Assembly (NCBI RefSeq): GCF_022539665.2
Contig: NC_081331.1
Coordinates: 8,091,534 to 8,155,533, forward strand
From: Daphnia carinata
Taxonomy: Eukaryota; Arthropoda; Branchiopoda; Diplostraca; Daphniidae
Length of the DNA stretch: 64,000 bases
Direction: 5' to 3'
A program made the position numbers and the translations under genes. Below the pieces are notes generated by a model that saw only the letters and a program-made list of their open reading frames with translations, was not told the origin of the DNA and ran no database searches. Positions 3,110 through 62,433 of the stretch are shown here, in pieces (the first letter of the stretch is position 1; each line of letters starts with the position of its first letter).

Positions 3110-3145
3110 GTAATTTACGCTTCCTTTTTGTTTAGTTGTTAAGTG

Positions 3146-3982
3146 TGTAAAGCATCTTCCTTGTGGGAAGATGGACTTTACGAATTTAAGACAATAAAGA
3201 ATAAAAATAATAAAATAATAAATGAATAAAAGAATGATAGAACTCAGAGGCGTTGTACCCACAATGACGACTATATTTGTCTTAGTTAAGCATAAAAGTA
3301 CAAGAGGTTTCGAATAAAAGAACAAGAGAAACATACGAAATAAAAGGGAAACTGAAAGTGTAACGGGATAACTGTAGTGTGAGCTTACCGCAATAGCACG
3401 GGCAGAATAAGAGAGCAGATGTAAGCTGAAGACGAGTTGTAACACAACTCGTCGGCACGTTGGTAACACAAGTTGTAAGAATTGACTCTCACTTGGGCAC
3501 GAGACCAAGATCAATTCTCAAACACAATATTGAAACAAAAGGAGGCACGAGCTGAATATGAACTTGACCGTAAGAGTCAGATACTCGTCGGTAACTCTCT
3601 TTCTTCAGGTCTTGAGTTCATCAAGAAACTTCGCATATTGGGCAATGATAAATTGCTGCGCAATTATTAGTCATCAATACATGGAATTGGATATGGCGAG
3701 ATGATGGTGCAATAATGAGTCATACTTGTTTCCGCCAATCAAACGTGTTGTTATAAGCGGCTTTGTGCCGATGAAATATGATATAGCATAAAGCAGGTGT
3801 TTATATAGGTCAAGTTGCTGCGCATATTGATGGTGCAATATGGAAATGGCGCAGTTATAAGAATTACGCAGTTATGGAATTGCGCAACTATATTGTGCAA
3901 TTAATATGAATTAAATGGATATAATAATAAGCATACATAGACAAGAATATAAACGTATAAAGTATTTATTGACTTCGTTACA
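3146..3982 (-). repeat. 3' LTR of the Gypsy element
   Basis: This is the direct repeat partner of 14,645-15,481 (constant offset 11,499). In element orientation it starts TGTAACGAAG and ends GATGCTTTACA. It contains a TATA-like TATATAAA (complement near 3,800), several TTGCGCAA-like palindromes at about 3,830-3,905, and a perfect 10-bp inverted repeat with a 3-nt loop at 3,431-3,453. The ORFs visible inside the LTR are present in both LTRs only because the LTRs are identical. Confidence 0.95.
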
Positions 3983-4015: not shown

Positions 4016-5725
4016 TCAAACTTGATGCATGGGGATGGATCCGGAGGATGTTGAACGTTTATGAGGGCGACGGCATATAACCCAGAAGATCTTGAAGAGA
4101 CCGCAACAGTAGCAGATGCGTAGGAAGAGTAATACGAGGATGCACATGATGCCGATGAAGAAGTAATTTTTTATTGTTTCCCACCAAGATGTGTAAGCTC
4201 CGACACTGGAGGCCGTTATGAAAATATTTGTGGCGCTGGGTTTACCGTGCGACGTAAATTCGGATGATGGATGTTCGTTGATCACGGCTGCTATGTCGGC
4301 CATGATGTTCATGTGGTTAAGCATATTGTCGGTGTATGCCGGGTTACTTTGGTGTTCGTAGTCGAAAAATTCGACGTTCTCGTAGCGGAAAGAGTGTGCC
4401 AGCGTTTGCTCAGGCAATACAATTGTGGCTTCGAGTTGTTCCCACGTATTATTACGGAAGGCATAGGGTTTGTTATTGAAATTGACAAATCCATTTGTCC
4501 AATAACAAGGAGAATATTTTACGAGTTCCCAGCCATCGAGGTTAATCGTATAATTTTGGAATTTTGGTTGCGGTCCGCACGAAGTCAATACAGTCTCAAA
4601 TGTGACATTTAAGGCCTGACATTGAATTAATACGACCGTCTTCCCGAATGCTTGTAATTTCGTGCACCGGGGTAAGTTTAATTGTGAGGCCGCTAGCCAT
4701 CCATTATATTGGGCAGTTGTGACGGCCCTTTCATGTTTGGCTTTACGAGCTTCACATTGAAGTAGTTGAACCTGTCGTGCCAATTCATTCTCGTGGTCGG
4801 TGAGTTGATCACGGATGTATTGGATATTGGCCGGAATATTTAAGTTTTCGGCGCCGAGTGGCGCTCGGGTCTCCACTGGGGTTGCTTTTTCCATTATGGC
4901 TGCCGTCGTGACGAAGAGTTTTGATTGGCCGACGATTTCATATGAAGAAGTTCTATTGGAGCAATTTTGTTGTACTGAAACGCAGCGCAGTACTGGTGTC
5001 AGGTGGAAGTCTAATTGGTTTTTGTCATCTTGGAGTCTAAGGAGTGGTTTTTCTCCTGGCAATCGGGTCAGCATACCGATGCCGTCTTCGACGAGTCTGG
5101 TAGTTACTTTGGTCTTCTGTGTGTAGGTTTTGTCCCAAATCAGTGTTAAGTGATTGTGTGACAAATTGCCGGACGTAGCAGAAGCAATTCCGATGGGTGT
5201 TGAGAAGTCTGCATCCTCCTTTTGCTGGAAAAGTTCGACTTTCTCGAGGACGCAGTTTATGATTGATGAATCAATTGTTTGTAACCAGTATCCAGAGATA
5301 TCTGGTTCATTGTCGAACACAAATTTTCCGTCGACAAAAGTCATCCGGTTATCATTGCACCTCTTGTTGTCAATCATTTCGTTGCAGTCGGCGGGGGTAG
5401 TATCAATTGGGATTTTATCCGGCACAACCAGTAGTTGCCCGAAGAAGGTCATTGTGATGTGTCGGATATTTTCCCAACGGGCACAGATGTAACCCGGGAA
5501 TTTAGTCGCGGCGCGTTCTTCACTATACACGGCGTATTTCACCTTGGTGGCTTTAATATCGGTGGATGTCGGTTGACAATTCTCATCGGAGAATTGAAGG
5601 ATTCCCACCTTCACTGGTTCCGCGCAATTGCATACGGTAGTCTCGAAGGCCTGGGAATGTAATCCGTACACGCATAATAGCAGCAGGAATGCAGAGGGGG
5701 ACATTTCTATATCCGGCCGGTACAT
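4016..5725 (-). CDS. env: Env-like membrane glycoprotein of the Gypsy element
   Basis: This is a 569-residue ORF between pol and the 3' LTR. Met-8 (codon at 5,704) starts a better signal peptide (MSPSAFLLLLCVYGLHSQA) and lies just after a possible splice acceptor TATAG, so a spliced env mRNA could begin there. The ectodomain is Cys-rich with several N-glycosylation sequons (NLS, NCS, NVT, NYT, NNT). A hydrophobic segment near residues 518-542 (IGIMCILVLLFL) and a short basic tail form the membrane anchor. No clear furin site was seen. The early motif CNCAEPVKVGILQF and the Cys spacing recall glycoproteins of arthropod negative-strand RNA viruses (chuvirus-like) more than the baculovirus-F-type Env of insect errantiviruses. 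That affinity is a weak inference. The Env nature by position and topology is firm. Confidence 0.8.
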   Translation of the reverse strand: MYRPDIEMSPSAFLLLLCVYGLHSQAFETTVCNCAEPVKVGILQFSDENCQPTSTDIKATKVKYAVYSEERAATKFPGYICARWENIRHITMTFFGQLLVVPDKIPIDTTPADCNEMIDNKRCNDNRMTFVDGKFVFDNEPDISGYWLQTIDSSIINCVLEKVELFQQKEDADFSTPIGIASATSGNLSHNHLTLIWDKTYTQKTKVTTRLVEDGIGMLTRLPGEKPLLRLQDDKNQLDFHLTPVLRCVSVQQNCSNRTSSYEIVGQSKLFVTTAAIMEKATPVETRAPLGAENLNIPANIQYIRDQLTDHENELARQVQLLQCEARKAKHERAVTTAQYNGWLAASQLNLPRCTKLQAFGKTVVLIQCQALNVTFETVLTSCGPQPKFQNYTINLDGWELVKYSPCYWTNGFVNFNNKPYAFRNNTWEQLEATIVLPEQTLAHSFRYENVEFFDYEHQSNPAYTDNMLNHMNIMADIAAVINEHPSSEFTSHGKPSATNIFITASSVGAYTSWWETIKNYFFIGIMCILVLLFLRICYCCGLFKIFWVICRRPHKRSTSSGSIPMHQV

Positions 5726-6420: not shown

Positions 6421-6456
<36 letters not shown>

Positions 6457-6886: not shown

Positions 6887-6924
<38 letters not shown>

Positions 6925-7150: not shown

Positions 7151-7675
7151 TTAGAAGTATCTCGGCTTCTTTGCGTTGGGGTCCTTCTGTTGATCGTCCG
7201 TGCTGGGTCTCTTCTCGGGCAAGTCCCAGTGGCACGATGTCCAACCATAGAGCGGTGGATGGCGCCTTTCGGGGTCCAGGTCGAGGATCGCCTTTAGGGT
7301 GAAGACGGCGTCACTCCATTTCTTGTCATACAGGGTGATGAGAAGACGGGCGATCAACTGATTTGTCTTGATTTCCAGCTGCTTCTGCTCCCAGGCTGCA
7401 TCGAGGTGCCAGTCCGAGGTGCGGGGTCTGCCGCGGCTAAAATCGATGGCATCCTCCATCTCGGACGTCCCCGGCAGGTTTCGGGCCGCGGTCTCCTCGT
7501 CGTCGATTGGTGAGGGATCTGGTGAATCCGGCGCGTCACGTTCGGCCGTCGAGGCGTCTCCGGACGACGTCGTGAGGTCTACCAAGAGGGCCTCCGCGAC
7601 GGGGAGTGGGATGGACACCATAGGTATCCAGTCGTTGGTCACGGGCTCAGAGATGGGTTCAGACTTGTTGTCCAT
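7151..7675 (-). CDS. Accessory ORF of the Gypsy element, unknown function
   Basis: A 174-residue ORF starts 172 bp after the pol stop and is separated from env by 1.4 kb. The first ~85 residues are acidic and Ser/Asp/Pro-rich (probably disordered). The central part is helical, around KTNQLIARLLITLYDKKWSD. The C-terminus is basic and ends PNAKKPRYF, which could be a nuclear localisation signal. I recognise no family. Position between pol and env is where complex retroviruses keep regulatory genes, but function is not shown. The second family copy in this window does not reach this region, so conservation cannot be tested here. It is G+C-richer than its flanks. Confidence 0.55.
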   Translation of the reverse strand: MDNKSEPISEPVTNDWIPMVSIPLPVAEALLVDLTTSSGDASTAERDAPDSPDPSPIDDEETAARNLPGTSEMEDAIDFSRGRPRTSDWHLDAAWEQKQLEIKTNQLIARLLITLYDKKWSDAVFTLKAILDLDPERRHPPLYGWTSCHWDLPEKRPSTDDQQKDPNAKKPRYF

Positions 7676-7846: not shown

Positions 7847-10800
7847 CTACATTTCGTCCCTGTAACGAATCGGTTTTCTCCGATTTCGCTGAGGGCGTCG
7901 GGTGACTTCTTGATGCAATAACGCTGCTGTCACATCATCTTTGGGCTCTACTTGTTGAAGGTCGGAATCACTATCAGCGTATATAGGAGTATTTTCGGAA
8001 AGTGGCATTGGATGCTGAGCATCATTCGTCACATCGCAATTGTCACTCGAGGTTAATCGTCCTTCGAACGACAGATGAGACGGGCCGATCACATTGTCTT
8101 CTCGCACAAGTTGATGATTTGCCGAATAAGTGTCTGATACCACTTCTGATACGGCTTCGGACTCGGTGTTTTGTTGCCTTGCGGTTTCGACATCGTGCTC
8201 GTGTTCACGCACATTAGTTTGAGTCGCAATAGACTTCCGGAATCGGCTCTCGAATTCCAAAGGGGTCTCAAGTGGCGGACAATGCTCATGTTTCCACAGC
8301 ATTGTTTCATACAAGGGTTTTAATCTATTTACATGCGTACGCTGACATATATATGAATTATCAGCAATGTCTACAGTATTATTTGAATAAACGTTTACTA
8401 TTCTATAAGGCCCTTTATATTTCGAAGTAAATTTCTTGCTATCTCCTTCCTTGACTACTCGAATATCCAATAACACCCGATCGCCTATCACATATCGTTT
8501 TTCTTTCGCGCGCTTGTTATATTGTTCCCTTTGGCGCTTTCTAGCTTTTTCGCTTTCCTCTCTAACTCTTTGAAAACTATAACGCAAACGTTCTGTCAGA
8601 TTCCCAACATAGTCAGAAGAAGATTTGAATGTTTTGGGAGATGCATTAAGAAATTCGTTAATAGGAATGTTTGGGTCCCTACCGTGAAGTAAATAATATG
8701 GAGTGTCCAATGTCGAAGAGTGGACCGAGCTACGATACGCAAATAAAACATCATCTAATATTTCTTCCCAATTGGCATGCTCGCCGTCTTTTAATTCTTT
8801 TCTTAACATAGACGTTAAAGTTCGATTGAACCTTTCCGTCTCCCCATTACTAGCAGGGTTATAAGCGGTGGTTAACCTCTGATCGATCTTCAATTTTTTA
8901 CAAAAATAGCGAAATAACTTGGACGTGAAATTTGTCCCACGATCAGAAATAATTGCCTTAGGCATACCATGTCTAACAATAACAGTTTTATATACACATT
9001 CTGCTGTTGTCTGAGCAGTTTGATCTTTTAAAGCAACAGCCTCAACCCAACGGCTAAAATAATCTGTAATAACCAAAATGTAACTATTACCATTGGGCGA
9101 AACTGGTGTAATAGGACCCAGAAAGTCCATTCCAATTACATCAAAAGGAGCCTTCGCAACTTCGTGCGGATGCAAAAGTGCTCGATAGGGTGAAGCAGTG
9201 TTGGCTATGCAAACTTCACAAACCCGGCAATATTCTTTAACATCGCCTCTCATGTTGGGCCAATAATAATTATTTTTGACTTTCATATAAGTCTTATAAA
9301 ATGCCAAATGTCCACCCATCGGTGCGTCGTGTAATTCTTTAAGCACTAGGTGGCGTAAGGATAATGGCAAAACTAATTGATGATGGGTGTCGTTCCTTTT
9401 ATTACTCTGAGATGGCAGTTCCCGTCTATAAAGTATTCCTTCAATTACCTCAAAATATTCAATTTCCTTTACCCACTCGGGTTTGGACAATGTAAAAATT
9501 TCATCCGGCTCTCCTTCTTCCAGATAATTCTTGATGGCTATACAGAGGTCGTCCTCCTGTTGTTTTTCGCAGATCAATTTAATATCCTTCCCAGTTTGAA
9601 TGCTAGCTATTTTTAATCTAGACAAACAGTCCGCGTTCTGGTGAACACGGCCTGGCCTATATTTTAATTCATAATTTGTTGCAGCCAATAAAATGGCCCA
9701 CCTCCCTAACCTTCCATTATTATCCTTCTGATTTTTAAGCCACTGCAAAGGACGATGGTCACTAATTATCTCAAAGGGTTTATCCAAGAGATAGTGACGG
9801 AAATGTTTAATGGCATCCACGACTGCCAGAGCTTCTTTTTCGGTTGTACTATACTTCATTTCCGCCTTAGTTAACTGCCTACTGGAGTACGCTATCGGGT
9901 GCTCTTGGCCGTTTTGCATTTGAGATAAGACGGCCCCAATACCATAGTCGCATGCGTCAGTGAAAAGAATAAATTTTTCATTAAAATTTGGATATGCGAG
10001 AACCGGCGGTGTAACCAGGGATGTCCGCAACTTTACAAACGCGACTTGTTCTTCGTCTCCCCAGGTAAAAGGTCTTTTACTAAGATCTTTGTGAGTTAAC
10101 CTAGTCAGAGGTTTTGCGATTGAACCAAAGTTGGGAATAAATCTCCTATAATAACCTGCTAAGCCGAGAAATGACCTCACCTCATCGGCAGAAGTAGGCG
10201 TTTTGTAATTTAATATTTTGTCGATTTTTCCAGGATCAGGTTTAATTCCCTCAGTCGAAATGACGTGGCCCAAATAATTTACAGAACGTTTAACGAATTG
10301 ACATTTCTTAAGTTTTAATTTTAAATTGGCAGTTTTCAATAAGGTAAAAATTTCCCGAATATCTTTCAAATGCTTATCAAAAGTATCCGAAAATATAATG
10401 ACGTCATCCAAATAAACTAACGCTTTATGTCCCAAAACGTCTTTCAGTACATAATTCATTAATCTTTGAAATGTGGCGGGTGCATTGCACAAGCCAAACG
10501 CCATCCTTTTAAACTCGTAAAGATTGTTTTCTACTACAAAAGCCGTTTTTTCAATGTCTGGTTCATTCACTTGAATTTGCCAGTAGCCGGAGGCCAAATC
10601 GAGGGTCGTAAAAAATTTCTTCCCATATAATTTATCTAACGTTTCATCAATCCTTGGCATAGGGAATGAATCTTTTTTTGTAATGCTATTTAATTTCCGA
10701 TAATCAACGCAAAACCTCACGTCTCCGCCTTTCTTCTCAACCAAAACCACAGGTGACGCCCATGGAGAATGAGAATATTGTATTACATTTGCGTCCATCA

Positions 10801-11821
10801 TTTCCTGCACTTTATCCTCCAGTATCTTTCTTTGGTGGTTCGTAACTCGATAGGGTCGTTGCCGGATAGGGCCTCTTCCTTGGGTATCGATCGTATGCTT
10901 AATGAGATTAGTGCTCCCTAATTCCGAGTCTTTTGTTGCGAACAAGTCATGAAAGTCATTTAATAAACTTGAGAGCGGAGCTTGAAATTCAGCGTCGACT
11001 TCCGAAATTAAAACTAGCTCCCGTTTTTGTGTAGGCTTTTCCTCTGGTTGACATAAGGCAATCTTACCAATTACGTTATGAATTACTTCGATTTGGCCTA
11101 AGGTTGTATTCCTAGGAAGTATGACTTGACTTAACGAATGGTTTTCGACCATAATTTGATATTTCCCATCTTCCGATACAGTTCCAACAAATTCTTCAAT
11201 AAAAATACCGGCCGGCAAATCCTCTGCTGGGGTAAAAATAAATGTGCTATTAGGGGGGACATACGGAAATGAACCTGTCATTTGCGCTGCGATTACGAGC
11301 GCCGTCTGACGAACTAGCGTCGTCTTTTTGACCGTCGTAATTGCCATGTCTGGTGCCCTAGAGATGGCTGATCCCTGCTCATCCCTGGCTAAGTAAATAC
11401 GTTTGGCTTCTCCGTCAAGCCGAAACCCGTGTTTCTGGATTGCATCCCATCCAAGGATACAGTCTTCAGAAACACCATTTGTAACAATGAACTCTTGCCG
11501 TAAAACGGACTCTCCGTAACGTACGGGCAATGTAACTTTACCCAGCGTATGCAACTTGTTATCTCCCACATCGTATAAATCGAAATCAAGCTGACTGCAG
11601 GTTACTTGATTTCTCGAGGGAAGCTTTTGAAATATCCTCTCGTGAATTATGCTTCTAGACGCGCCTGTGTCAAATAATGCCTGTAAAGGGATCTGAAAAA
11701 TTTGTAATGGAATTCTGGGGGTCGATTCGTTTATTATTGTTGTTAATTTCGCAACTTGTCGGGATTTCAACTGAGGTACCCTATCAACTGACCCGAAGTT
11801 ACAGTTGATACTTATTGGTTT
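7847..11821 (-). CDS. pol: Pol polyprotein (protease, RT, RNase H, integrase) of the Gypsy element
   Basis: This is an open frame of about 1,320 codons, reached from gag by -1 frameshift at 11,818-11,824; no ATG is needed at its start. From N to C: aspartic protease with DTGASR (about residue 34 counting from 11,770); reverse transcriptase with YLDD (about residue 452) and WASPVVLVEKK; RNase H with FTDACDYGIGAVLSQ; integrase with an HHCC zinc module (about 820-860) and a DDE core starting in MDFLGP with SDRGTNFTS and ETERFNRTL. The C-terminal tail is long, acidic then basic (RPQRNRRKPIRYRD), with no chromodomain seen. The RT-RH-IN order is that of Ty3/Gypsy. No frameshift or stop interrupts it. 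Confidence 0.97.
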   Translation of the reverse strand, partial: KPISINCNFGSVDRVPQLKSRQVAKLTTIINESTPRIPLQIFQIPLQALFDTGASRSIIHERIFQKLPSRNQVTCSQLDFDLYDVGDNKLHTLGKVTLPVRYGESVLRQEFIVTNGVSEDCILGWDAIQKHGFRLDGEAKRIYLARDEQGSAISRAPDMAITTVKKTTLVRQTALVIAAQMTGSFPYVPPNSTFIFTPAEDLPAGIFIEEFVGTVSEDGKYQIMVENHSLSQVILPRNTTLGQIEVIHNVIGKIALCQPEEKPTQKRELVLISEVDAEFQAPLSSLLNDFHDLFATKDSELGSTNLIKHTIDTQGRGPIRQRPYRVTNHQRKILEDKVQEMMDANVIQYSHSPWASPVVLVEKKGGDVRFCVDYRKLNSITKKDSFPMPRIDETLDKLYGKKFFTTLDLASGYWQIQVNEPDIEKTAFVVENNLYEFKRMAFGLCNAPATFQRLMNYVLKDVLGHKALVYLDDVIIFSDTFDKHLKDIREIFTLLKTANLKLKLKKCQFVKRSVNYLGHVISTEGIKPDPGKIDKILNYKTPTSADEVRSFLGLAGYYRRFIPNFGSIAKPLTRLTHKDLSKRPFTWGDEEQVAFVKLRTSLVTPPVLAYPNFNEKFILFTDACDYGIGAVLSQMQNGQEHPIAYSSRQLTKAEMKYSTTEKEALAVVDAIKHFRHYLLDKPFEIISDHRPLQWLKNQKDNNGRLGRWAILLAATNYELKYRPGRVHQNADCLSRLKIASIQTGKDIKLICEKQQEDDLCIAIKNYLEEGEPDEIFTLSKPEWVKEIEYFEVIEGILYRRELPSQSNKRNDTHHQLVLPLSLRHLVLKELHDAPMGGHLAFYKTYMKVKNNYYWPNMRGDVKEYCRVCEVCIANTASPYRALLHPHEVAKAPFDVIGMDFLGPITPVSPNGNSYILVITDYFSRWVEAVALKDQTAQTTAECVYKTVIVRHGMPKAIISDRGTNFTSKLFRYFCKKLKIDQRLTTAYNPASNGETERFNRTLTSMLRKELKDGEHANWEEILDDVLFAYRSSVHSSTLDTPYYLLHGRDPNIPINEFLNASPKTFKSSSDYVGNLTERLRYSFQRVREESEKARKRQREQYNKRAKEKRYVIGDRVLLDIRVVKEGDSKKFTSKYKGPYRIVNVYSNNTVDIADNSYICQRTHVNRLKPLYETMLWKHEHCPPLETPLEFESRFRKSIATQTNVREHEHDVETARQQNTESEAVSEVVSDTYSANHQLVREDNVIGPSHLSFEGRLTSSDNCDVTNDAQHPMPLSENTPIYADSDSDLQQVEPKDDVTAALLHQEVTRRPQRNRRKPIRYRDEM

Positions 11822-11824
11822 CCC
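11759..11824 (-). promoter_or_regulatory. Programmed -1 ribosomal frameshift signal, gag-pol
   Basis: In gag phase the sense strand reads G GGA AAC (11,824-11,818), a canonical X XXY YYZ heptamer, two codons before the gag TAA (11,814-11,812). An 8-nt spacer follows, then the perfect 8-bp stem ATCAACTG/CAGTTGAT (11,809-11,802 with 11,790-11,783) around an 11-nt loop. Loop bases TCGGG can pair with CCCGA at 11,763-11,759, giving a possible H-type pseudoknot. The pol frame lies in -1, as predicted. The same cassette recurs at 62,421-62,487. Confidence 0.8.
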
Positions 11825-14610
11825 TGATGCTGAGGGGGACCCGGAATATTAGGCCTACTGGCCCTATACTTGGGACAATTGTTTGATTTATGGCCGATCT
11901 CACGGCAAGAATAGCAAATTGGGGGCTGTGCTTGTTCCAACATATACCGTTGAAATTTACGGCACTCCGATTGTGTGTGACCCCGAAACCCACAATAGTT
12001 GCAAGTTATTACATTCTCAATAGGCCCATTGTTCGGATTATGACCAGATTTTGGCGAAGATGGCATATAATTTGTAGGCCTATTTTGGTTCTTATCCCCT
12101 TGATACGGGTGGGTGTTACTCTTAGGGAAAGGTGGAGGGTTTGTCTTCCAGTTCCTTTCCCGATTACCGTTGCCTGTTTGAAATGATACCCTTTTTTTAT
12201 ATGGGGCACCCGCCGAAGAAGAAACATTATCCTTCTTATTAATTTGGAGTTGTTTGACCGCCTGACTGAGCTCGCGCAGCGCGTCTTTAATTTCATCCTT
12301 CTCCGATTTCGGAGTGTCTACGATCTTGTTCCCTTGACGTATATTCGCGACGGCCTGATTGACTATTGCTTTCTGATCGATTAACATCTGCTTAATCTCA
12401 TGCAATTCTGTATTTTCTGCACCTTTCGACTCGTCGATCGCCCTAACAAACTCATGTTTTTCACGGTCAGATTCGAGTGCTTCCAAGCGAACAGCATAAA
12501 CGCGTGTCGTTGCAACCAGTGCGTTAAAGTCGCCAAATTCTTTGTACTTAACTTTCGCCTGTAACTTGGAATCCAAGCCTTCGATAAATTTCTGCATGAG
12601 AATAATTGAAAAGGAACGCTCGATATGGCCTACAGGATACGCTTTTTTAAAGATTTCCTGAAGACGATGAGCATAATCAATTATTTTTTCTCCCGGTTTC
12701 CGTTTAGCCTTATTAAATTTCTTAATATACAAGTCAACGTTTTCGTCCCCGTGAAAGTGATCAAGTAAAGCTTCTTTAATAGACGTATAGTCATGAGGAT
12801 GATCTTTGACAATATTTTGCACTACGGAAAAAGCCTTATCAGTCATTTTTGCTCGCAACATCTGAATAACCTTCTCCTCTGACCATCCTGACCCCTCAAT
12901 TACGCTTTCAAAGGATTCGATCCAGGAATCAAAACGAGAAATTGGACTCCCTGAAAAAGAAGGAAGCAGTTGTAAGCGCGCGAAGGTATGTTGGGTAGTC
13001 TGAAGATCGTTCAAGTCGTTGACCGTGGCTGTCCGTGATGGGGATGAAGAACTAGCCATGTTTGGATTAAATGAAGGGAAATTTATTGTTCTTCGTTGTG
13101 GATTCGGAGGGAGTTCTGGAATGCCACTCGAAATTGCCTGATGCCCTCTGGTATCTCTTCCGGTCGTCTGGAGGGTTGGATGTGAGGAACGATTCGATTG
13201 ATTGATCGTCTGCAACGTTGGCGTCTGCTGTGTGTCCGCCGTTCTTGCGAGGTTGTTTCCGACAGCGGCGATGTGTGTTGGGCCGGTGTGGCTTGTAGTT
13301 GGGTAATGTTCGTTTGTATGCACAACAGCGCTTGTTTCAATCGTATTTCCGTTTGCGTGATTAGTGGTTTGATGTTGTTGGCCTCCTGTGCGTTGACTGG
13401 GTTGTTGGCTTCCGGAAAATTGTTCAGTTTGTCCAAGAGAAGTTGAATTTCTGGTTGCAGCACCTCCAAATTGTTGATTAAGTTTAGTTTTTCCAGGTAC
13501 GACGCTAGGTTGTTCACTTCCTTCAAGAATGCTCGTTGTGATGCCAGTAAGATTTCTTCCAGATGGATTGATATGTCGCTCACTACGGTGATTATCTCCA
13601 CGTATCTGCCGTCCTCGTCGGTGGTTTCGATATCTTTTCTCGGAACGAACCCGAAAATTCTTCCCGCTCTCGTTGGTGTGATCTTTTGCAGATCGATGAG
13701 ATTGTAGATTTGACCGTGTAGACAAGTCAAAACCTGTCTCGCGTGCCGGGTGAAAATCCCCTTGAGCTCCGTCACAACCTCCCCTGTCTGCTTCTTCGTC
13801 TTCTTCGGTATCGGTCCACTGACTTTCACTTCCAGAATGGATGTCAGGTACGTCAGGAGAATCCTCGGTTGTTTCCAATTCGTCTGCGTCGGCTGTTCCA
13901 CGTGGTAATTCCTCTGGACGTCGAGCATCAACTGGACAAGGTGATCCCAGATTTTCGGGTCGCTTGACTGAAAATCCTTCTCCCTCTCCTTGAGGCTTTG
14001 GAGGGTTAGTAATAGGAACGGCAGCTGGCTTTTCGGTGACTGAAAGATGCTGTTTCCGTTCTTTTTGACTTCTTGCAAAAGATGCTTGAGACTCACGTTG
14101 AGCTGTTCTTCCATTGGCTGCTCTCTTTTCCGAAAAGAAATTCGAAACGGCAATCGAGAAAGATTTGGTGGGAGAAGTTTGCTGGGAAACGGACCTTCGT
14201 TTTGGCGAAAGATGTCCTACAATTCTGTCTAAAAGGGAGGGTGACTTCGTAAAAGTCGAGGTTTTCTCTGTGCGCTGGACCTGAGGTTTGCGAGCGTTCG
14301 GTATGTCTAGACCAGGTACCGACTCGTATGCGGAATTTGATCTTAACTTCCTCTTCTGAGAGCTATCAGGAATCGCCCTTGGTTTTAAAACAGGGGAAGC
14401 GGACTTTTTAATAGCGTTTGTTTTCCTATTGGAAGTCTTACACCCCGTAAACTTATCAGCAACGGCAGACTTAGCAGTGGGTAATGCTTCAAAATTGATA
14501 GCTCTCGCTACGGATTCGTCAATAGGTGTAGTGGCCTCAACAGAAATGTTAGTAGCGGCAACAGGCGTTCGAGAAAGTTTAGGCCTACTGTGGAAAATAT
14601 TATCAGTCAT
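11812..14610 (-). CDS. gag: Gag polyprotein of the Gypsy element
   Basis: This 932-residue protein starts 34 bp inside the 5' LTR. The N-terminal ~540 residues are low-complexity (Ser, Thr, Gln, His, Arg). They are followed by a capsid-like domain (motifs PSFSGSPISRFDSW and LLDHFHGDENVD, then the basic KAKRKPGEKI), a coiled region, and two CCHC zinc knuckles near the C-terminus (CNYCGFRGHTQSEC and CYSCREIGHKSNNC) for RNA packaging. The disordered N-terminal half overlaps a second ORF in the +1 frame (13,083-14,114). Gag ends 6 nt after the slippery heptamer. Homologous gag sequence with the same order is seen at 59,637-62,433 and, decayed, at 29.3-33.6 kb. Confidence 0.93.
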   Translation of the reverse strand: MTDNIFHSRPKLSRTPVAATNISVEATTPIDESVARAINFEALPTAKSAVADKFTGCKTSNRKTNAIKKSASPVLKPRAIPDSSQKRKLRSNSAYESVPGLDIPNARKPQVQRTEKTSTFTKSPSLLDRIVGHLSPKRRSVSQQTSPTKSFSIAVSNFFSEKRAANGRTAQRESQASFARSQKERKQHLSVTEKPAAVPITNPPKPQGEGEGFSVKRPENLGSPCPVDARRPEELPRGTADADELETTEDSPDVPDIHSGSESQWTDTEEDEEADRGGCDGAQGDFHPARETGFDLSTRSNLQSHRSAKDHTNESGKNFRVRSEKRYRNHRRGRQIRGDNHRSERHINPSGRNLTGITTSILEGSEQPSVVPGKTKLNQQFGGAATRNSTSLGQTEQFSGSQQPSQRTGGQQHQTTNHANGNTIETSAVVHTNEHYPTTSHTGPTHIAAVGNNLARTADTQQTPTLQTINQSNRSSHPTLQTTGRDTRGHQAISSGIPELPPNPQRRTINFPSFNPNMASSSSPSRTATVNDLNDLQTTQHTFARLQLLPSFSGSPISRFDSWIESFESVIEGSGWSEEKVIQMLRAKMTDKAFSVVQNIVKDHPHDYTSIKEALLDHFHGDENVDLYIKKFNKAKRKPGEKIIDYAHRLQEIFKKAYPVGHIERSFSIILMQKFIEGLDSKLQAKVKYKEFGDFNALVATTRVYAVRLEALESDREKHEFVRAIDESKGAENTELHEIKQMLIDQKAIVNQAVANIRQGNKIVDTPKSEKDEIKDALRELSQAVKQLQINKKDNVSSSAGAPYKKRVSFQTGNGNRERNWKTNPPPFPKSNTHPYQGDKNQNRPTNYMPSSPKSGHNPNNGPIENVITCNYCGFRGHTQSECRKFQRYMLEQAQPPICYSCREIGHKSNNCPKYRASRPNIPGPPQHQGNQ
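13083..14114 (-). CDS. Overprinted ORF inside gag (+1 frame), unknown helical protein
   Basis: A ~343-residue ORF starts at the ATG 14,114 (an in-frame ATG also exists at 14,153) and ends at 13,083, wholly inside gag in the +1 frame. The second family copy has an ORF in the same relative frame at 60,133-61,233 with the ATG at the aligned place, and a third decayed copy has the aligned ATG at 33,408. Protein similarity is clear: SQLPFLLLTL vs SQLPSLLLTL; LKEREKDFQSSDP vs LKERELDFQSTNP; the shared LNNF, SPLSE and LRIH. In the central and 3' parts of the overlap this frame looks better conserved than the gag frame, which there is disordered. Predicted content is largely helical with a basic, Arg-rich patch near the end. 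Function and mode of translation are unknown; several ATGs precede it, so simple leaky scanning is unlikely. Confidence 0.7.
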   Translation of the reverse strand: MEEQLNVSLKHLLQEVKKNGNSIFQSPKSQLPFLLLTLQSLKEREKDFQSSDPKIWDHLVQLMLDVQRNYHVEQPTQTNWKQPRILLTYLTSILEVKVSGPIPKKTKKQTGEVVTELKGIFTRHARQVLTCLHGQIYNLIDLQKITPTRAGRIFGFVPRKDIETTDEDGRYVEIITVVSDISIHLEEILLASQRAFLKEVNNLASYLEKLNLINNLEVLQPEIQLLLDKLNNFPEANNPVNAQEANNIKPLITQTEIRLKQALLCIQTNITQLQATPAQHTSPLSETTSQERRTHSRRQRCRRSINRIVPHIQPSRRPEEIPEGIRQFRVAFQNSLRIHNEEQ

Positions 14611-14623
14611 TGTGGGTGAGTCC

Positions 14624-14641
14624 GAGAAATCGCTGCCACCA
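14624..14641 (-). promoter_or_regulatory. Candidate tRNA primer-binding site
   Basis: Three bases after the 5' LTR end, the element's sense strand begins TGGTGGCAGCG. A primer-binding site should start TGG (complement of tRNA CCA). The same TGGTGGCAGCG occurs three bases after the LTR end of the second copy (59,606-59,616), while the bases after it differ. I could not assign the tRNA. Confidence 0.6.
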
Positions 14642-14644
14642 TTA

Positions 14645-15481
14645 TGTAAAGCATCTTCCTTGTGGGAAGATGGACTTTACGAATTTAAGACAATAAAGAA
14701 TAAAAATAATAAAATAATAAATGAATAAAAGAATGATAGAACTCAGAGGCGTTGTACCCACAATGACGACTATATTTGTCTTAGTTAAGCATAAAAGTAC
14801 AAGAGGTTTCGAATAAAAGAACAAGAGAAACATACGAAATAAAAGGGAAACTGAAAGTGTAACGGGATAACTGTAGTGTGAGCTTACCGCAATAGCACGG
14901 GCAGAATAAGAGAGCAGATGTAAGCTGAAGACGAGTTGTAACACAACTCGTCGGCACGTTGGTAACACAAGTTGTAAGAATTGACTCTCACTTGGGCACG
15001 AGACCAAGATCAATTCTCAAACACAATATTGAAACAAAAGGAGGCACGAGCTGAATATGAACTTGACCGTAAGAGTCAGATACTCGTCGGTAACTCTCTT
15101 TCTTCAGGTCTTGAGTTCATCAAGAAACTTCGCATATTGGGCAATGATAAATTGCTGCGCAATTATTAGTCATCAATACATGGAATTGGATATGGCGAGA
15201 TGATGGTGCAATAATGAGTCATACTTGTTTCCGCCAATCAAACGTGTTGTTATAAGCGGCTTTGTGCCGATGAAATATGATATAGCATAAAGCAGGTGTT
15301 TATATAGGTCAAGTTGCTGCGCATATTGATGGTGCAATATGGAAATGGCGCAGTTATAAGAATTACGCAGTTATGGAATTGCGCAACTATATTGTGCAAT
15401 TAATATGAATTAAATGGATATAATAATAAGCATACATAGACAAGAATATAAACGTATAAAGTATTTATTGACTTCGTTACA
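14645..15481 (-). repeat. 5' LTR of the Gypsy element
   Basis: This 837-bp copy looks identical to 3,146-3,982. It carries the promoter for the element: a TATA-like box (complement near 15,300) and, upstream of it in element sense, a cluster of TTGCGCAA-type palindromes (about 15,330-15,405). A perfect hairpin (10-bp arms GACGAGTTGT, loop AAC) lies at 14,930-14,952. The immediate right flank is AGTG, matching the left flank. Confidence 0.95.
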
Positions 15482-15518
15482 AGTGAATAAATTTATTTTA
15501 ACGTATCTCTTTCGATAG

Positions 15519-15973: not shown

Positions 15974-17086
15974 ACTTGAACTTTAATATTACAAATACTT
16001 CATTCTTTTCTAAATTCGAAGCATTTTTCATGTTTTTCTCTTCTATCGATAATACTCTTGGTGTAGTTTTTAAAATGTACTAGTCCGCAAAAATGGTATC
16101 TTAAAAAATTTACTGTATCTCTTATCGGAACTCATCGTGCTCCATGGATAGACAAAGTACCAACGGAAGCATTAGGAGTACGCTCCGTTTCTCGATGCTT
16201 TTTAAAATGATTTTCCAGTAAGTGCTACATCCTCCAAGGAAGATTTTTTTTTTTCATCAACTAGAAGAAATTCCGGCCCAGCATGTACCTGTCCCTGAAT
16301 TCCCAAATCGGCCGCCAGTGAAGACAAGAAGCGGACGAATTTCCCGTCTCCCCATTATCCTCGAAGTTTTTGATCTGAATTAATAGTTTTGATGGTTGAT
16401 ATTGATTTTGCGTCATCTGTTTTCGGAATTCACTATTCGATTGTTTTGTTTTTTTTTTTATTTATTTATTTTTTTTTGTTGTTGTTTTTTTTTTTTTTTT
16501 TTTGTTTTGTTTTGTTTTCCGCTAATTTAAATAGCGCTTTGCTCCAACCACCCATAGTTTCCCCCATCCGTGAGCTATTTTGTTTAGTTGTGTTGATCTT
16601 GATTTTGAACTCACACCCAGATGTAGGAATCGAATGCATGAGAAGGGAATGGTAAGGTTTATGTGTTGAACGGGTTGGGTATAGCTTAGGTATAAGTTTA
16701 GTTTAGTTTATCAGATTTTGTTTTTTTCGTTTGAGCGAGTAAGATTGTGGCAGGAACCTTTATTTTGTGTGGAATTTGTTATGATTGTTCAGTGCCTTTT
16801 AGCACGGGTGAAATTATTGTGGTGTTATGTATTGTTTATTATGTATGTGAATCGTGAAAAGTCACAGGCCAGGAAAGGCCGAATGTTGCGGGGTACCACA
16901 GATACCCCGCTGACATTACGACAAGTCCCTTTTCCCCCTGCTAGATGTCACGTCTGGTGACACCCCTTTTCTCTTACCCTCACCATCTCTCGAGCGGACA
17001 CTGTGGTTAAGACTGTGAAACTGGGAACATCGCTTTTGTTGCTGAGATATTTTTTGTAATACGGGTGCCGTGCTAGGCTCCATCGT
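15974..17086. other. Intergenic, T-rich; short retroelement tail
   Basis: Mostly AT-rich, with T-runs at 16,440-16,520. On the plus strand about 16,260-16,375 can be read as a short Pro/Arg stretch with PPVKTRSGRISRLP, like the C-terminal tail of some LTR-element integrases. It is too short to classify. Nothing else is recognised. Confidence 0.3.
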
Positions 17087-17745
17087 GTGAAAAAGAACTA
17101 TAGTCTGAATAAAAGAGGCTTGTGGGCCTTTATCCTGCAACAATATGCAGATGTTAGAAGCCATCTTGGCCATTACGGCGTAGTTTTGTGGGAAGAAGAC
17201 AACAATTTCTATCGCATTCAGATAACCAAGGAGATGGTGAATGACGCAGAAATTCACTTCGTCGATTACGGAAATCTTCTTGAGGTGCCCCGATGCCAAA
17301 TCCTTGCTCCCCTTGAAGGTTTGACGCGCTTCCGCCATCCTCCTTTCGGCATACATTGCAGGCTAGAGGGTGATGTGGCCTTGTCCGTCTCGGAATGGAA
17401 AGAGGCCATCTTGGATAAGTCGGTTGTGGTTACTATGGGAAAGTGTGAAAATGGAATTTATTCCGTCACATTGACAAATGATCCCTGCAATTATGAAATT
17501 GCCAAAATGGTTTCAAAAAAGGTTATCCCGACATGGAAGGTGTCAAACAATAGTGAGTTCTTCGTTTTTTTTATTGATTCACCGACTGTTGTTTATTTCA
17601 TTATTTCCTTTTCAGCACCAGCGGTCAGTGTACGCAGCGATTCGTCGCCAGCTGCTCCTCAAGCAGTGCCCCCAGCGGAGCCGAGCGAAGATCGACGAAG
17701 GAGAAACAAAGATACTAAGGCCTCGGGAATCGGAGATAGGCTGAT
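17087..17745 (+). pseudogene. tudor gene piece: extended Tudor domain, displaced
   Basis: On the plus strand a Tudor core reads FYRIQITKEM, then EIHFVDYGNLLEVPR and HCRLEGD, the usual methyl-arginine-binding fold of germ-plasm scaffold proteins that bind PIWI proteins. An intron begins with GTGAGT at about 17,552. The segment 17,144-17,205 is repeated in inverse at 21,496-21,557, where it ends the minus-strand tudor piece. Read through that shared 62 bp, the minus-strand piece would continue into this domain, so the domain appears cut off from its N-terminal half by a rearrangement. Around 17,710-17,745 it meets the next piece, which runs the other way. Confidence 0.65.
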
Positions 17746-18651
17746 ATCGTAGGGGAAAGCTACGGGCTCTTCCACGGCAATCAAATCGAGAACGTTGGTG
17801 TCCCCGATGAAAAGCGATTCCACAAATTGCACGCCGTTATTATCCGTTCCCAATGATGCCCAGAGCATTTGCTCCAACTGGGAACAAATGTCGTTGAATT
17901 TTTCTGCAGTCGCTTCCGAACATTCCACAGACAAATCTCCCTGGATAGCCATGACCGGAATGTTTAAGAATTTCTCAGGTAAATTGAGTATATCTTCCTG
18001 TGAGACGCGGAGAGTATCACCGTAATCGATGAACCGAACTTCTGTAAAGTCTTTGAAAATGCTGATGATCTCGGCGCGGTACCATGCGCCGTACATGTAG
18101 TGATGCACTCCATAAATCTGATGGATAAAACGTTGCCCTATATACTACATGTAATTCTTCGATGGATGGTCGATGCAAGTACGAGTTACACAGCTGTTCA
18201 ATCAAGTCGACGCCATCGGTGGAGAAGAGGCGAACGTTCAGGGTTCCATCGATCACGTTCGCGCAGTGTACGGTGAAGGCTTCCGATTCGACAATGACAG
18301 TTTCAAAAGCCAGTGAAACTTCTTCTGTGAAAGCTTCTGCTCCAACTACACTGCATTTATAAGCAGCGGCAGGTTGGTGAGACACATCCACTAGTAGCCG
18401 TCGCAAATCGCTGATGTTTACTGCGCAACTGTTGCCGTAATCCACGTAATGAACAGTGGCAGTGTCCCCGTCAACAGATTCGACAGTAGCGCGATACCAG
18501 CAACCATCGTCGGCGAAGAACGCCAGGCAAGGCTTACCGACGGAGGCCGTATAATCTTTGCAGTTGGTGAACTCGGGATCAAGAACCAAAACGTCAATAC
18601 GTTCCGAGATGCCAAAGATCGATTTCGGTTCTAATTGAACCCAGAACTCAG
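17720..18651 (-). pseudogene. tudor gene piece: two Tudor domains, chimeric
   Basis: Minus strand. The first part (18,651-18,140) is an extended Tudor domain: FWVQLEPKSIFGISER, CLAFFADDGCWYRATV, ATVHYVDYGNSCAVN. Then at about 18,139 the sequence jumps, without a plausible intron, into a second Tudor core (GAWYRAEIISIF, EVRFIDYGDTL), and the reading frame shifts there. The second part continues to NGVQFVESLFIGDTNV. Positions 17,834-18,651 form one arm of an 818-bp inverted repeat. At the first codons this copy has CAA where the other arm has TAA. Confidence 0.65.
17834..18651 (-). repeat. Inverted repeat arm 1 (818 bp) of the tudor locus
   Basis: Pairs with 20,678-21,495 in reverse complement (coordinates sum to 39,329 along the whole arm). 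Only a few substitutions were seen, including one CAA/TAA difference and one V/E difference. The spacer is about 2.0 kb. Confidence 0.9.
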
Positions 18652-18660
18652 CTTCTCTGC

Positions 18661-18895
18661 TTATAAATGCAGTGTAGTTGGAGCAGAAGCTTTCACAGAA
18701 GAAGTTTCACTGGCTTTTGAAACTGTCATTGTCGAATCGGAAGCCTTCACCGTACACTGCGCGAACGTGATCGATGGAACCCTGAACGTTCGCCTCTTCT
18801 CCACCGATGGCGTCGACTTGATTGAACAGCTATGTAACTCGTACTTGCATCGACCATCCATCGAAGAATTACATGTGGTATATAGGGCAACGTTA
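18661..18895 (+). repeat. Third, partial inverted copy of the tudor segment (235 bp)
   Basis: Reverse complement of 18,128-18,362 (coordinates sum to 37,023), and in the same orientation as part of 20,678-21,495. It reads AYKCSVVGAEAFTEEVS. The spacer to its inverse partner is about 300 bp, so the DNA could form a foldback. Confidence 0.85.
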
Positions 18896-18897
18896 CG

Positions 18898-19188
18898 TTA
18901 CGTAACGAAAATGCTGATGATCTCGGCGCGGTACCATGCGCCGTACATGTAGTGATGCACTCCATAAATCTGATGGATAAAACGTTGCCCTTTGATTCGG
19001 AATGATTCTTTATCCGCCTCGTAAGTATCGGCTATTTCGTCCAACATTCCAATGAGCACGTCATTGTTATGTTGCAGTTGAAGCCAGAACTCATTTGGAG
19101 ATACGGAATAAGTGACGTACACCTTCACACAATAAACGCGCGGCTGACCCTCCGTAACCGACTCCGACGTCGATGGCTCTGGCATCAC
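18898..19188 (-). pseudogene. tudor gene piece: start of a Tudor domain
   Basis: The minus-strand frame reads VTYSVSPNEFWLQLQH, then GQRFIHQIYGVHHYMYG and GAWYRAEIISIF, the start of the Tudor domain whose second half appears at 17.7-18.1 kb and 21.2-21.5 kb. Its last 85 bp (18,907-18,991) are a direct repeat of 18,055-18,139. This piece shows what the authentic upstream sequence of that domain is, and so proves that the other two copies are chimeric at that point. Confidence 0.6.
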
Positions 19189-19329
19189 AGGTGTAAGTTT
19201 CTACGTTCGTCTCATTGAAACCAGTTTGCTGCTGGCCGACATGGTTCGCATGCTGAACACGTAGTACTCCGGTAAATTGCGATGTAGCGTTACCTTATGT
19301 CACTTGTTTAATCTGTGGTTCTTTTTATT

Positions 19330-32149: not shown

Positions 32150-33560
32150 CCCATCTACAATGCTTTCAAAAGATTCTAATCATGAGTCGAAACGTACAAG
32201 AGGGCTTCCCGAAAAAGAAGGAAGTAATTGTAAACGGGAGGTCTGCTGGTTATTTTGGGCTGGTCATTTAAATCGTTAACAGTGGCTGCTCTTGAGGGAG
32301 AAAAAAATTCAACCATGTTTGGATTCAATGTGGGAAATTTCGAAGTTCCTCCCTTCGGATTCTGAGGGTGCTCTGCAATGTTATGCGTAATTGCTCGAGA
32401 TTCTCTTGCTTTTCTTCCGGTTGATTGGATCGCTGAACTCGTGGGGAGTGTTAAGTGCGTGAGGAAGTTGATGGTTGGTTTCCTCGGCGTGTCTGTCTTC
32501 CCCTCAGTGTGTTTTCCGACGGCGGAGATTCTTGCTGAATTGGCGCTGCTTGCTGTTGTGTTGGGTTCGGTTGTATGAATAACAGCGACTGTCTCAATTG
32601 TCTTTTTGTTTGCGTGAGTCTTTGTTTGATATCCCTCGCATGTTGCTCTTGGTAGCCCTAGTGGCTTGGTGACTTCAGGGAAATTGTTCAATTGGTTCAA
32701 GATGAATACCATTTCTGGCTGCAACACCTTCAATTGGTGACCGACTGTAGTTTCCTTAGATATGAGGATAGGCTGTCGGCTTCCATTAGAAACGTTTGCT
32801 GAGATTCCAGCAGATAAATCTCCTCCAGCAATCTCTTCCAGGACGGATCTCTTCCAGTATTGATACCTCAGACACCTCCGAGGATGAGAGGATAATACTC
32901 TCCAACTCTCGTCCCTGTCTCTGATGTCTCGTCTCGGAACGAAATCGAAGAGCTACTTCTCCAATTGTTGGTGTGAGCTTTTGCAAGTCGATGATGTCGT
33001 AGATCTGTCCCTGCAGGAAAATCAAAAACTGTCTCGCGTGCGTCGTGAAAATTTTTGTCAGCTCGGTCACTAGTTGCTCCGTTTTCCGGTTCGTCTTCCT
33101 CTTAGTCGGCCCACGGGTTTTTCTTTCCAGAATGGACGTCGAGTATCCAAAAGAGTCGTCGGACTCTACCAATCTGCTTGTGTTTGCGGGTAGACTTGGT
33201 TTTTCTTCCGGATGTCTTTCATCTACCAGATGAGAGGGTCTCAGGCTTTCGGGTCGCTTGACTGGAACTCCTTCTCCCTCTCCTTGAAACTTCTGATGGC
33301 TAGTAGTAGGAACGGCAACTGGCTTATTGGTGTCTGGAAAATGCTGTCTTGATTCTTCTTTGCTTCTTGAGATATATGCTGGATGCTTACATAGAGCTGG
33401 TTTTCCATTGGGTGTATTTCTGTTCTGAAAAAGATTTGAAACAGTGCTCGATACAGCGCTTGATGGGGACGGGTTTTTGGAAACAGATTTCTTAGGTGAA
33501 GATGGCATACTAATTTAACTAGAAAGGAGGGCGAATTTTTCACAGTCGTGGCTTTAGAAT
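32150..33560 (-). pseudogene. Gypsy gag relic, N-terminal and overlap region
   Basis: Decayed minus-strand copy of gag of the same family, with several frame shifts. The gag frame (QGEGEGVPVKRPESL) and the overprinted +1 frame (SQLPFLLLAI, FKEREKEFQSSDP, THARQFLIFLQGQIYD, LNNFPEV) are both recognisable; the overprinted ORF's ATG aligns at 33,408. The first ~110 gag residues are missing. The capsid part is broken at about 32,150 and resumes at 29,640. Confidence 0.75.
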
Positions 33561-59504: not shown

Positions 59505-59636
59505 TATCCATCATTGTGGGAAATACGCCTCCGAGCTCGTTATTATTTCCTTTTGTCTTAAATACCGTAAAGTCAGTCTTCCCACAAGGAAGATACTTTA
59601 CATAATGGTGGCAGCGTTTTTCAGAGCTCTACCACA

Positions 59637-62433
59637 ATGATGGACGATGTTATGTCAGGTGGGCATAAACTTTCTCGTACACCTTTGAACACCCCGCTTA
59701 TTCCTGTAACACCCGTAGTGCAAATCAATGACGAAACGATAGCTAAGTTCATTAGTTTCGAAAAATTGTCAGCTTCTTCCACGACCGTTCCGCATACATT
59801 GCAAGGCTGTCAGCCGTCAGAAAAAGGAACAGTAGATGTTAAGCAGTCGGCTTTTCCCATTTTAACTCCCAAAGTGCAGACAGATAACACCCAGTTGAAG
59901 AAATTGAGGTCTAACACGGCGTATGAGGCCGTATCTCCATTAGTTAAGCCTACCGCTAGGAGAATTTGGCCTGGTAGCAAAGCTTCCGTTACACCTACTC
60001 AAACCGCTCCATCTGTTTATGCAAGGTTAGCTTCTCGTTTTTCCCCCATAAAATCACCTGTGGGAAACACATCAAAGACTAGTTTTCTCTCGAGCACTCT
60101 TTTAAGCTTTTTCCAAAAGAAAAGCCCAGTGAATGGACGGTCAACCCAAAGTGAGTCTCCATCACCTATACCACGAGATCACGACCAACCAATCGAGAAT
60201 ATTCCCGGCACCAACGAGTCAGTTACCGTCCCTACTACTGACGCTCAGGTACCTCAAGGAGAGGGAATTGGATTTCCAGTCAACCAATCCATTAATTTGG
60301 GAACAACTACGATCGTTGATGCAAACAATCCGGCTGCGGTACCAATACCAAGCCAACGTGACAACGGATTTGAAAAACCCGAAGACACTCCTGAAAGCCT
60401 TGGGAGCAGTCCTTGAAACGATAGCAATTGGACAAACCAGGACAACGGCACAGGTTGCGGAGAACCAAGTGGCCGCGCTGACAGCAATCTTCACAACCTA
60501 TGCGAGGGAGTTTACGATTTACCTACTAGGACAGACTTACAACATCGTCGAGTTACTGACATACACGCCGGCGAAGGACAAGGACCTGTTCAACTTTGTC
60601 CCCCAGGAAAGCTTGCTCAACAACCTCGAGGACAGGACATATTCCCTACTCGCAATCGAGATAGCGCAGTTCTCAACCTACCTAAAGGACACCCTGCGGG
60701 AGTACCAGCTGAAGTTCCTCAAGGACATCCTCCACCTGGTCCCTTACCTAAGAAAAGTTCAGCCCATAAGCAGTTTGGAGGGATTATTGCCGGAACTGAC
60801 ATCGCTTCAGACCAAATTAAACAACTTCCAGACATCGGTGCAACCGGACGGGCAGCGAATAACGAAGGAAATCAGGGAAACACTCATTCCGGCTACCAAC
60901 GAATTGAGACAGTTGCTATCATACATTCCGAGGACCCAGGAAGAACAGCAAACCACGCCGAGTCCGCAGGAATCGCCGCTGTCGGAACGCATTCCGAAGA
61001 GAAGGCGAGCACGCCAAAGAAACCGGCCTTCCAACCAGTCACGCACTCAACACCCTCCTCAAGCCCAGCAATCCAATCAGCAGGAAGATCTGATAGCGCA
61101 ACTGAGGCGATTACGAACAGCATTTCAGGACACCCTCAGAATTCACGGCGAAAGACGTCGAATCCTCTCATATTCGATCCCGACATGGCCAAATCTTGTT
61201 CTCCTTCACGGGCTGCCACAGTCAACGACTTAAATGATTTTCAGACAAACCAACACACTTTTTCGCGCCTACAATTGCTTCCTTCCTTTTCGGGAAGTCC
61301 AATTTCTCGTTTTGACTCTTGGCTAGAATCTTTTGAAAGCATAGTTGATGGGGCAGCATGGTCAGAAGAAAAGATTATTCAGATGCTGCGAGCTAAAATA
61401 ACAGATAAGGCTTTTTCAGTACTTCAAAACATTATCAGGCAGCATCCGCATGATTATGCGTCTATTAAAGAAGCGTTACTTGATCACTTTCATGGGGATG
61501 AAAACGTCGATGTCTATATAAAAAAATTCAATAAGGCTAAACGCAAACCAGGCGAAAAAATTCGTCGACTATGCGCATCGCTTGCACGAGATTTTTAAGA
61601 AGGCGTATCCAGCGGGTTATGCAGAGAAATCGTTCACGATAATCCTTATGCAAAAATTTATCGAGGGGTTGGATTCCAAATTACAGGCCAAAGTACGTTA
61701 TAAAGAATTTCGCGATTTTACCGAGCTTGTAGCATCAACGCGTATTTATGCCGTTCGTTTGGAAGCTTTAGAGACAGATCGGGAAAAACATGAGTTTGTT
61801 AGAGCAATCGATGGATCGTGTGACACAAAACATTCAGATTTGACGGAACTCAAGCAAATGTTAATCGACCAGAAGGAAATAGTCAATAATGTCGTTGCTA
61901 ATATTAGTCAAGGGAATAAAAATGCGGAGAGCCCGAAAGAAAACAGGGAAGACATTAGGGATGTTCTTCAGGAACTCACGCAAGCAGTCAAACAGCTCCA
62001 AAGGGACAAGAAAGATTATTCTTCTTCTCCAACAGGCAACCCTTATAAGAAACAAGTTTCGTTCCAAACCAATAGCGGCAATCAAGACAGAAATTGGAGA
62101 CCTCCTCCTCATCGACCCAATAATAACACCAATTCTTACCAAAATCCGGGATTCTCTAATAGACCTACACAGTCCACGTCCTCGTTTTCCAGACCTTTTA
62201 TTGATTCGAGAAATCGGCCTACTCAAAATGGAATAACTTGCAATTTCTGCGGTTTTCGTGGGCATACACAATCGGAATGCCGTAAATTCCAACGGCATAA
62301 TTTAGAACAAGCACAGCCTCCAATTTGTTATTCTTGTCGTGAAATCGGACACAAATCGAATAACTGTCCTAAGTTCAGGAGCTCCGATAGGCCGAATATT
62401 CCAGCTCCCCCTCAGCGTCAGGGAAACCAATAG
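59637..62433 (+). pseudogene. gag: Gag of the second Gypsy copy, two lesions
   Basis: Same layout as 11,812-14,610: disordered N-terminal half, capsid-like domain (PSFSGSPISRFDSW), zinc knuckles (CNFCGFRGHTQSEC, CYSCREIGHKSNNC). The gag frame is open except for a TGA at 60,414-60,416 and a one-base insertion in an A-run near 61,555. Notably the frame stays open for about 770 nt beyond the TGA, so the damage is recent. Confidence 0.85.
60133..61233 (+). CDS. Overprinted ORF inside gag, second copy
   Basis: A 366-residue ORF in the +1 frame relative to gag, starting at an ATG that aligns with the ATG at 14,114 of the first copy. It remains fully open although the overlapping gag frame has acquired a stop at 60,414. 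Shared features with the first copy: SQLP-LLLTL, LKERE-DFQS, IFT-AR, GQ-YN, a KLNNF segment, SPLSE, an Arg-rich patch and LR-AFQ--LRIH. Predominantly helical; family unknown. Confidence 0.7.
   Translation: MDGQPKVSLHHLYHEITTNQSRIFPAPTSQLPSLLLTLRYLKERELDFQSTNPLIWEQLRSLMQTIRLRYQYQANVTTDLKNPKTLLKALGAVLETIAIGQTRTTAQVAENQVAALTAIFTTYAREFTIYLLGQTYNIVELLTYTPAKDKDLFNFVPQESLLNNLEDRTYSLLAIEIAQFSTYLKDTLREYQLKFLKDILHLVPYLRKVQPISSLEGLLPELTSLQTKLNNFQTSVQPDGQRITKEIRETLIPATNELRQLLSYIPRTQEEQQTTPSPQESPLSERIPKRRRARQRNRPSNQSRTQHPPQAQQSNQQEDLIAQLRRLRTAFQDTLRIHGERRRILSYSIPTWPNLVLLHGLPQSTT

Follow-up and report, generated by a model that had tools for sequence, protein, structure and literature searches.

The stretch of DNA considered here (the window: 64,000 nucleotides of the Daphnia carinata genome, contig NC_081331.1) carries a Ty3/Gypsy retrotransposon, element 1, which extends from 15481 to 3146 on the minus strand and has a pair of long terminal repeats (LTRs), a target-site duplication and several open reading frames (ORFs). 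Its gag ORF (11812..14610, minus strand, 932 amino acids) comprises a conserved N-terminal part, a spacer, a PNMA-like capsid region (amino acids 558-666) and a CCHC knuckle, and the spacer is overlapped by an ORF of 343 codons in the +1 frame relative to gag (13083..14114, minus strand, ATG at 14114). This hidden gene, here named alt together with its product, ends in a basic C-terminal region, is predicted to be all-helical and, as judged from sequence comparisons, is almost certainly a true protein-coding gene that overprints the central part of gag in one Ty3/Gypsy lineage that also bears an env-like ORF. The initial annotation of this DNA, made from the letters alone, had described the ORF, and it is indeed there; that gag and alt both lie on the minus strand was a point absent from it. 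Two further copies that it had described also exist in the window. Copy 2, on the plus strand, has an intact alt of 366 codons (60133..61233), 36-37% identical to that of element 1, although the N-terminal part of its gag (59637..60416) is ended inside the overlap by a TGA at 60414-60416. The third copy (32283..33408, minus strand, found by tblastn) is decayed and starts with an ATG at 33408, with alt residues 1-245 matched at 33408-32644 (34%) and residues 185-342 at 32828-32346 (39%).

Element 1 has the organisation of the Ty3/Gypsy elements (Metaviridae) in its pol order, its termini and its gag. Domain matches identify pol (7847..11770, minus strand; protease, reverse transcriptase, RNase H and integrase), with RVT_1, RT_RNaseH, Integrase_H2C2 and rve in this order and all above their cut-offs; the protease-like matches preceding RVT_1 score below the cut-off. 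The gag protein matches PNMA with 26.2 bits (cut-off 25) and zf-CCHC with 25 bits (cut-off 20.8). The 5' LTR (14645..15481, minus strand, 837 bp, TGTAAC...TTTACA) and the 3' LTR (3146..3982, minus strand) match at 837 of 837 bases, start with TG and end with CA, and are bordered by the 4-bp target-site duplication AGTG (left copy 3142..3145, right copy 15482..15485). A putative primer-binding site (PBS), starting with TGG, lies 3 nt past the 5' LTR, and an upstream ORF of 11 codons (14607..14642, minus strand) has its AUG 1 base before it and its UGA overlapping the gag AUG (as AUGA). Downstream of pol, an accessory ORF of 174 amino acids (7151..7675, minus strand) precedes an env-like ORF of 569 amino acids (4016..5725, minus strand) with a hydrophobic N-terminus, a C-terminal hydrophobic stretch and 20 Cys residues. 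The pol protein has its closest named relatives in Daphnia magna (78%) and Daphnia sinensis.

A six-frame search of the 108-Mb genome with alt gave at least 118 scored matches out of 222 candidates, with identities from 100% down to 33%, and the matched stretch is free of stops in 82 of these 118; an alt query from another subfamily gave 121 scored matches. Gene and lineage go together: at least 69 of the 94 RNase H matches assigned to the alt-bearing lineage are accompanied, 2.5-9 kb upstream on their own strand, by a scored alt match, and, among the alt matches listed, none accompanies the remaining 25 or any of the 56 other Gypsy RNase H matches (150 scored matches in total, the lineage split being a rough one, set only by where the profile match ends).

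The 77 near-full-length copies that were fetched out of the 118 matches comprise 56 with a full-length alt ORF (an ATG followed by 290 codons or more), 15 with a truncated alt and six set aside for a mutated, shifted or missing start (L031, L035, L075, L076, L079 and L085). Alt measures 301-366 codons in 55 of the 56 full-length copies and 479 in L053. These copies, chosen on the alt frame alone, have no gag-frame stop within the first 300 overlap codons in 40 cases and at least one in 16. They fall into 12 clusters at 90% identity and into three clades (A, B1 and B2) that are 33-45% identical to each other and nevertheless keep both frames. The alt ATG is retained in 70 of the 71 copies whose alignment includes the start (six others, which lack alignment there, being left out), with L031 as the sole exception, and in 37 of the 70 it is directly preceded by an in-frame stop. 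The frame cannot be entered from upstream in these copies, which argues that alt starts at its own AUG.

Both frames are held open beyond chance, as permuting the codons makes evident. In 18 copies, hand-picked mostly because their gag is open, synonymous permutation of the alt codons leads to an expectation of 4.5-9.6 stops in the gag frame, and none is observed (one in L022; P<=0.0025 each), while the third frame has 18-26 stops, matching the expectation. In the reverse permutation, that of the gag codons, 2.9-6.3 alt-frame stops are expected versus none observed (P<=0.0155).

Which of the two proteins is under selection can be asked from substitutions, for which single-base differences were classed by their effect in both frames and stratified by mutation type: silent in alt and not in gag (SN), silent in gag and not in alt (NS), or non-silent in both (NN). 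Six pairs of copies were used, joined by paths with no common branch in the alt tree, and the p-values assume independent sites. The difference rates were 0.091 (SN), 0.048 (NS) and 0.037 (NN). The NN/SN ratio, which reports on alt, is 0.59 (p=1e-10), an indication of amino-acid constraint that is significant singly in four of the six pairs, whereas the NN/NS ratio for gag in the overlap is 0.96 (p=0.67), with no residue-level constraint overall. Stops, on the other hand, are avoided in both frames, with nonsense/missense ratios of 0.14 for gag and 0.16 for alt (p=2e-4 in each case). Resolved by region in five sets, with some copies in more than one, the gag ratio is 0.73-1.73 in the overlap, compared with 0.10-0.20 in the capsid and 0.19-0.61 in the N-terminal part that precedes alt, and a phantom +1 frame in the flanking gag, taken as a control, gives 0.78-1.12 in nine of ten region tests. 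These results support the view that alt is the constrained frame and that gag across the overlap would be a passenger that mainly must stay open. Since its residues show no overall constraint and its stops are avoided, gag there appears to be a nearly free but obligatory spacer. The initial proposal of a genuine dual-coding gene is therefore backed by intactness across subfamilies, by the permutation tests and by the frame-specific substitution tests with their flanking controls, with one restriction: the amino-acid constraint that dual coding implies was found for alt and not for gag, which in the overlap is only protected from stops.

No relative of the alt protein was found among 5.8 billion proteins or among Pfam or PDB sequences; gene callers may skip overlapping ORFs, and hence these missing relatives do not prove that the gene is absent elsewhere. 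Relatives of the element's pol do occur in the same very large protein set. An AlphaFold2 model from 35 sequences predicts an all-helical fold (predicted local distance difference test score, pLDDT, 72.5; predicted template modelling score, pTM, 0.69), with low confidence from residue 273 on. Fold searches returned generic helical matches only and no clear fold match, and no membrane segment was found in alt, the best 19-residue hydropathy being 1.44 and 1.06 for two copies of the window. In all 28 pairings of eight copies whose capsid is free of stops, the first 150 capsid residues are better conserved than alt, which has identities between clades of 36-43% vs 72-85% for the capsid, and within clades of 59-86% vs 72-95%.

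Outside D. carinata, a predicted D. sinensis protein (P0049) starts with gag-like sequence of the kind found in the overlap. Residues 1-248 of this protein, with any codons allowed, fit the alt profile with a score of 119.7, which is far above both the control profiles built after randomising the codons of the corresponding gag proteins (38.6 +/- 3.5, maximum 45.4 in 20 trials) and the residue-shuffle control (maximum 29.6 in 25 shuffles). Hence the imprint of alt is also present, at the level of this comparison, in a gag-like protein of D. sinensis, and an open alt frame is suggested for that species from its protein sequence.

As to expression, alt would be translated from the same RNA as gag, either by ribosomes that miss the gag AUG (leaky scanning) or by ribosomes that resume scanning after the 11-codon upstream ORF (reinitiation). 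Of 61 copies that have the PBS motif, 59 show this upstream ORF sharing the sequence AUGA with the gag start, an overlap that may control gag translation. In the window's own copy (L009) there is not a single AUG in the 493 nt between the gag AUG and the alt AUG, a depletion with P 0.038. The product would be an accessory protein in its own right, soluble and helical, with a basic tail, and would most likely engage a host factor as retroviral accessory proteins do, a role suggested by its divergence, by the lack of a membrane segment and by analogy; the open gag spacer would presumably join the N-terminal part of gag to the capsid. Taken jointly, a real overprinted alt with its own AUG, purifying selection on its amino acids, a gag spacer, leaky scanning or reinitiation as the mode of expression and a function as an accessory protein form the best explanation of the data, and we consider this whole a probable one, its expression and function being the parts that we infer from sequence.

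There are, however, several points that weigh against parts of this explanation. Seven other copies tested carry 2-5 AUGs in the alt frame between the gag AUG and the alt AUG, each then stopped before the latter, and the depletion of AUGs is not significant in them (permutation, P 0.25-0.72). Because of these intervening AUGs and the non-significant depletion, plain leaky scanning is not established; leaky scanning or reinitiation would fit L009 well and the other copies less well. In the substitution test, two pairs give no significant signal for alt, L045-L082 (0.83, p=0.3) and L080-L083 (1.58, p=0.17). Since L080, L082 and L083 carry stops in the capsid, decay after insertion may have blurred the signal in these two pairs. 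The pair L026-L038 favours some gag constraint (0.62, p=0.014), and one phantom-frame control is low (0.29 in the B2 N-terminal part, with few counts). The first AlphaFold2 run, led by the window's copy, was weak (pLDDT 55.7, pTM 0.47). Finally, only relative to the capsid is it clear that alt evolves fast: compared with the env of the window's subfamily, the env of the B1 and B2 clades is 75-80% identical and that of the A4 subfamily (copies at C82 and C98) 63-65%, while the alt of the A4 subfamily is 68% identical to that of the window's subfamily. This comparison makes a weaker case for alt evolving faster than the rest of the element and gives a mixed picture, in which rates are uneven or parts have been exchanged between lineages; the proposed host-factor role partly rests on this divergence of alt.

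Among the alternatives, the one that survives best keeps alt as a real gene and has it made from a spliced RNA, with an acceptor just before the alt AUG, instead of from the genomic RNA. AG dinucleotides and pyrimidine runs do precede the alt ATG, and splicing would make the intervening AUGs of the other subfamilies irrelevant, yet no CAG is conserved at a fixed place before it (CAGCCA, CAACCA, CACCTA, CAGTGA and CATTAG are found). This route is a possible one that we regard as rather unlikely, and, as it shares the first half of the best explanation, the two are not mutually exclusive in their odds. According to another alternative, alt would be the true 5' gene and functional gag would start downstream, near residue 553, where a Met could serve as start, the long gag extension being untranslated and open by accident or composition. 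The gag residues in the overlap, without overall constraint and poor in hydrophobics (14%), would agree with this, but gag-frame stops are depleted and nonsense changes avoided, as described above, the portion of gag that precedes alt is constrained in its own frame, and the third frame has its expected number of stops; we hold this reading to be improbable. Slightly more improbable still is a ribosomal frameshift from gag producing a gag-alt fusion, that is, an alternative Gag C-terminus with no separate alt protein. Frameshifts are common in retroelements, and in 21 of 70 copies, the window's included, 33-34 codons of open alt frame precede the ATG; in the 37 copies with a stop right before the conserved ATG, though, the shift would need to follow that ATG, which would leave the ATG itself unexplained. 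Lastly, that an unselected alt frame owes its openness and conservation to recent shared ancestry and a low stop density is practically excluded, for although many copies within a subfamily are more than 90% identical, both frames are open across clades at 33-45% identity, and the permutation and substitution tests refute it.

Retroviruses, including lentiviruses, encode accessory products beside or over their structural genes, often directed against host factors, although we know of no retroviral accessory gene that occupies 300 codons within gag in a different frame. The p69 protein of turnip yellow mosaic virus and the PB1-F2 protein of influenza virus are overprinted in an alternate frame and translated by leaky scanning from a downstream AUG on the same RNA, and they resemble alt in this arrangement of starts, the viruses and proteins being unrelated. 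The nearest described case found, within the parts of the sources available, is that of the small ORFs (sORF1 and sORF2) of the Drosophila MDG1 group (412, Mdg1 and others), for which peptides have been reported and low non-synonymous/synonymous rates cited (PMC11952523). Like alt, they are extra coding ORFs at the gag end of Ty3/Gypsy elements; unlike it, they measure about 110 amino acids or less and precede gag, and one of them, the membrane protein sORF2, has been compared to fusogens (PMC11952523). Alt has neither the transmembrane segment nor the position upstream of gag of sORF2 and of fusion-associated small transmembrane (FAST)-like proteins, and the presence of an env-like ORF further sets its element apart from the MDG1 case. 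The glycogag of murine leukaemia virus is read in the gag frame and extends Gag at its N-terminus, and is thus not a product of another frame as alt is (PMC5120145). For Daphnia itself, the available part of a survey of the LTR retroelements of Daphnia pulex, which covers the Ty3/Gypsy lineages of a Daphnia genome, was not found to mention any overlapping ORF (PMC2996953). Nothing comparable appeared, at the level of titles and opening lines of abstracts, in the searched literature on overlapping or extra gag genes of LTR elements and on Daphnia elements, mostly outside subscription journals, and to that extent the novelty claimed in the initial annotation holds.

The other ORFs of the element also belong to wider families. 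The env-like ORF has no match among Pfam or PDB sequences and 80 scored matches in the genome, 57-84% identical outside the window's own subfamily; its similarity between subfamilies does not track that of alt. The 174-amino-acid ORF has 151 genomic matches, at many places, those from other subfamilies being mostly about 35-48% identical over a core of about 75 residues, and in some elements ORFs of this type apparently stand two or more in a row (for example C62:15924 and 17376; C82:128368-131427). Short imperfect repeats (6400-6925 and 16440-16520) are common to the pol-env region of element 1 and the flanking DNA. Elsewhere in the window, copy 2 adjoins a fragment of a Piwi-like gene that is present twice (57594-57947 and 59151-59504, 99.4% identical, within the region 57594-59640, plus strand), and a 427-amino-acid ORF there matches Piwi_N and PAZ. 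Several ORFs with Tudor domains lie on both strands at 17087-20311, and two ORFs of this region (18017-18589, minus strand, and 18635-18952, plus strand) have a stretch in common, as in an inverted duplication.

The alt family suggests that accessory genes have been acquired in an invertebrate Gypsy lineage. More speculatively, and with considerable doubt on our part, this crustacean lineage could be complex in the lentiviral sense, with an overprinted, helical and fast-evolving gene in gag and a small, sometimes duplicated accessory gene before env; alt would then counter a host defence such as the PIWI-interacting RNA (piRNA) pathway, and the gag overlap would have decayed to an unconstrained linker carried for the sake of alt. 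As overlapping ORFs of this kind may go uncalled, such genes have possibly been missed widely. The family also constitutes a clean natural experiment, with more than 100 copies of many ages in which one frame appears constrained at its residues and the other mainly in its stops, and as alt is a diverging protein, a direct search for its host target is feasible.

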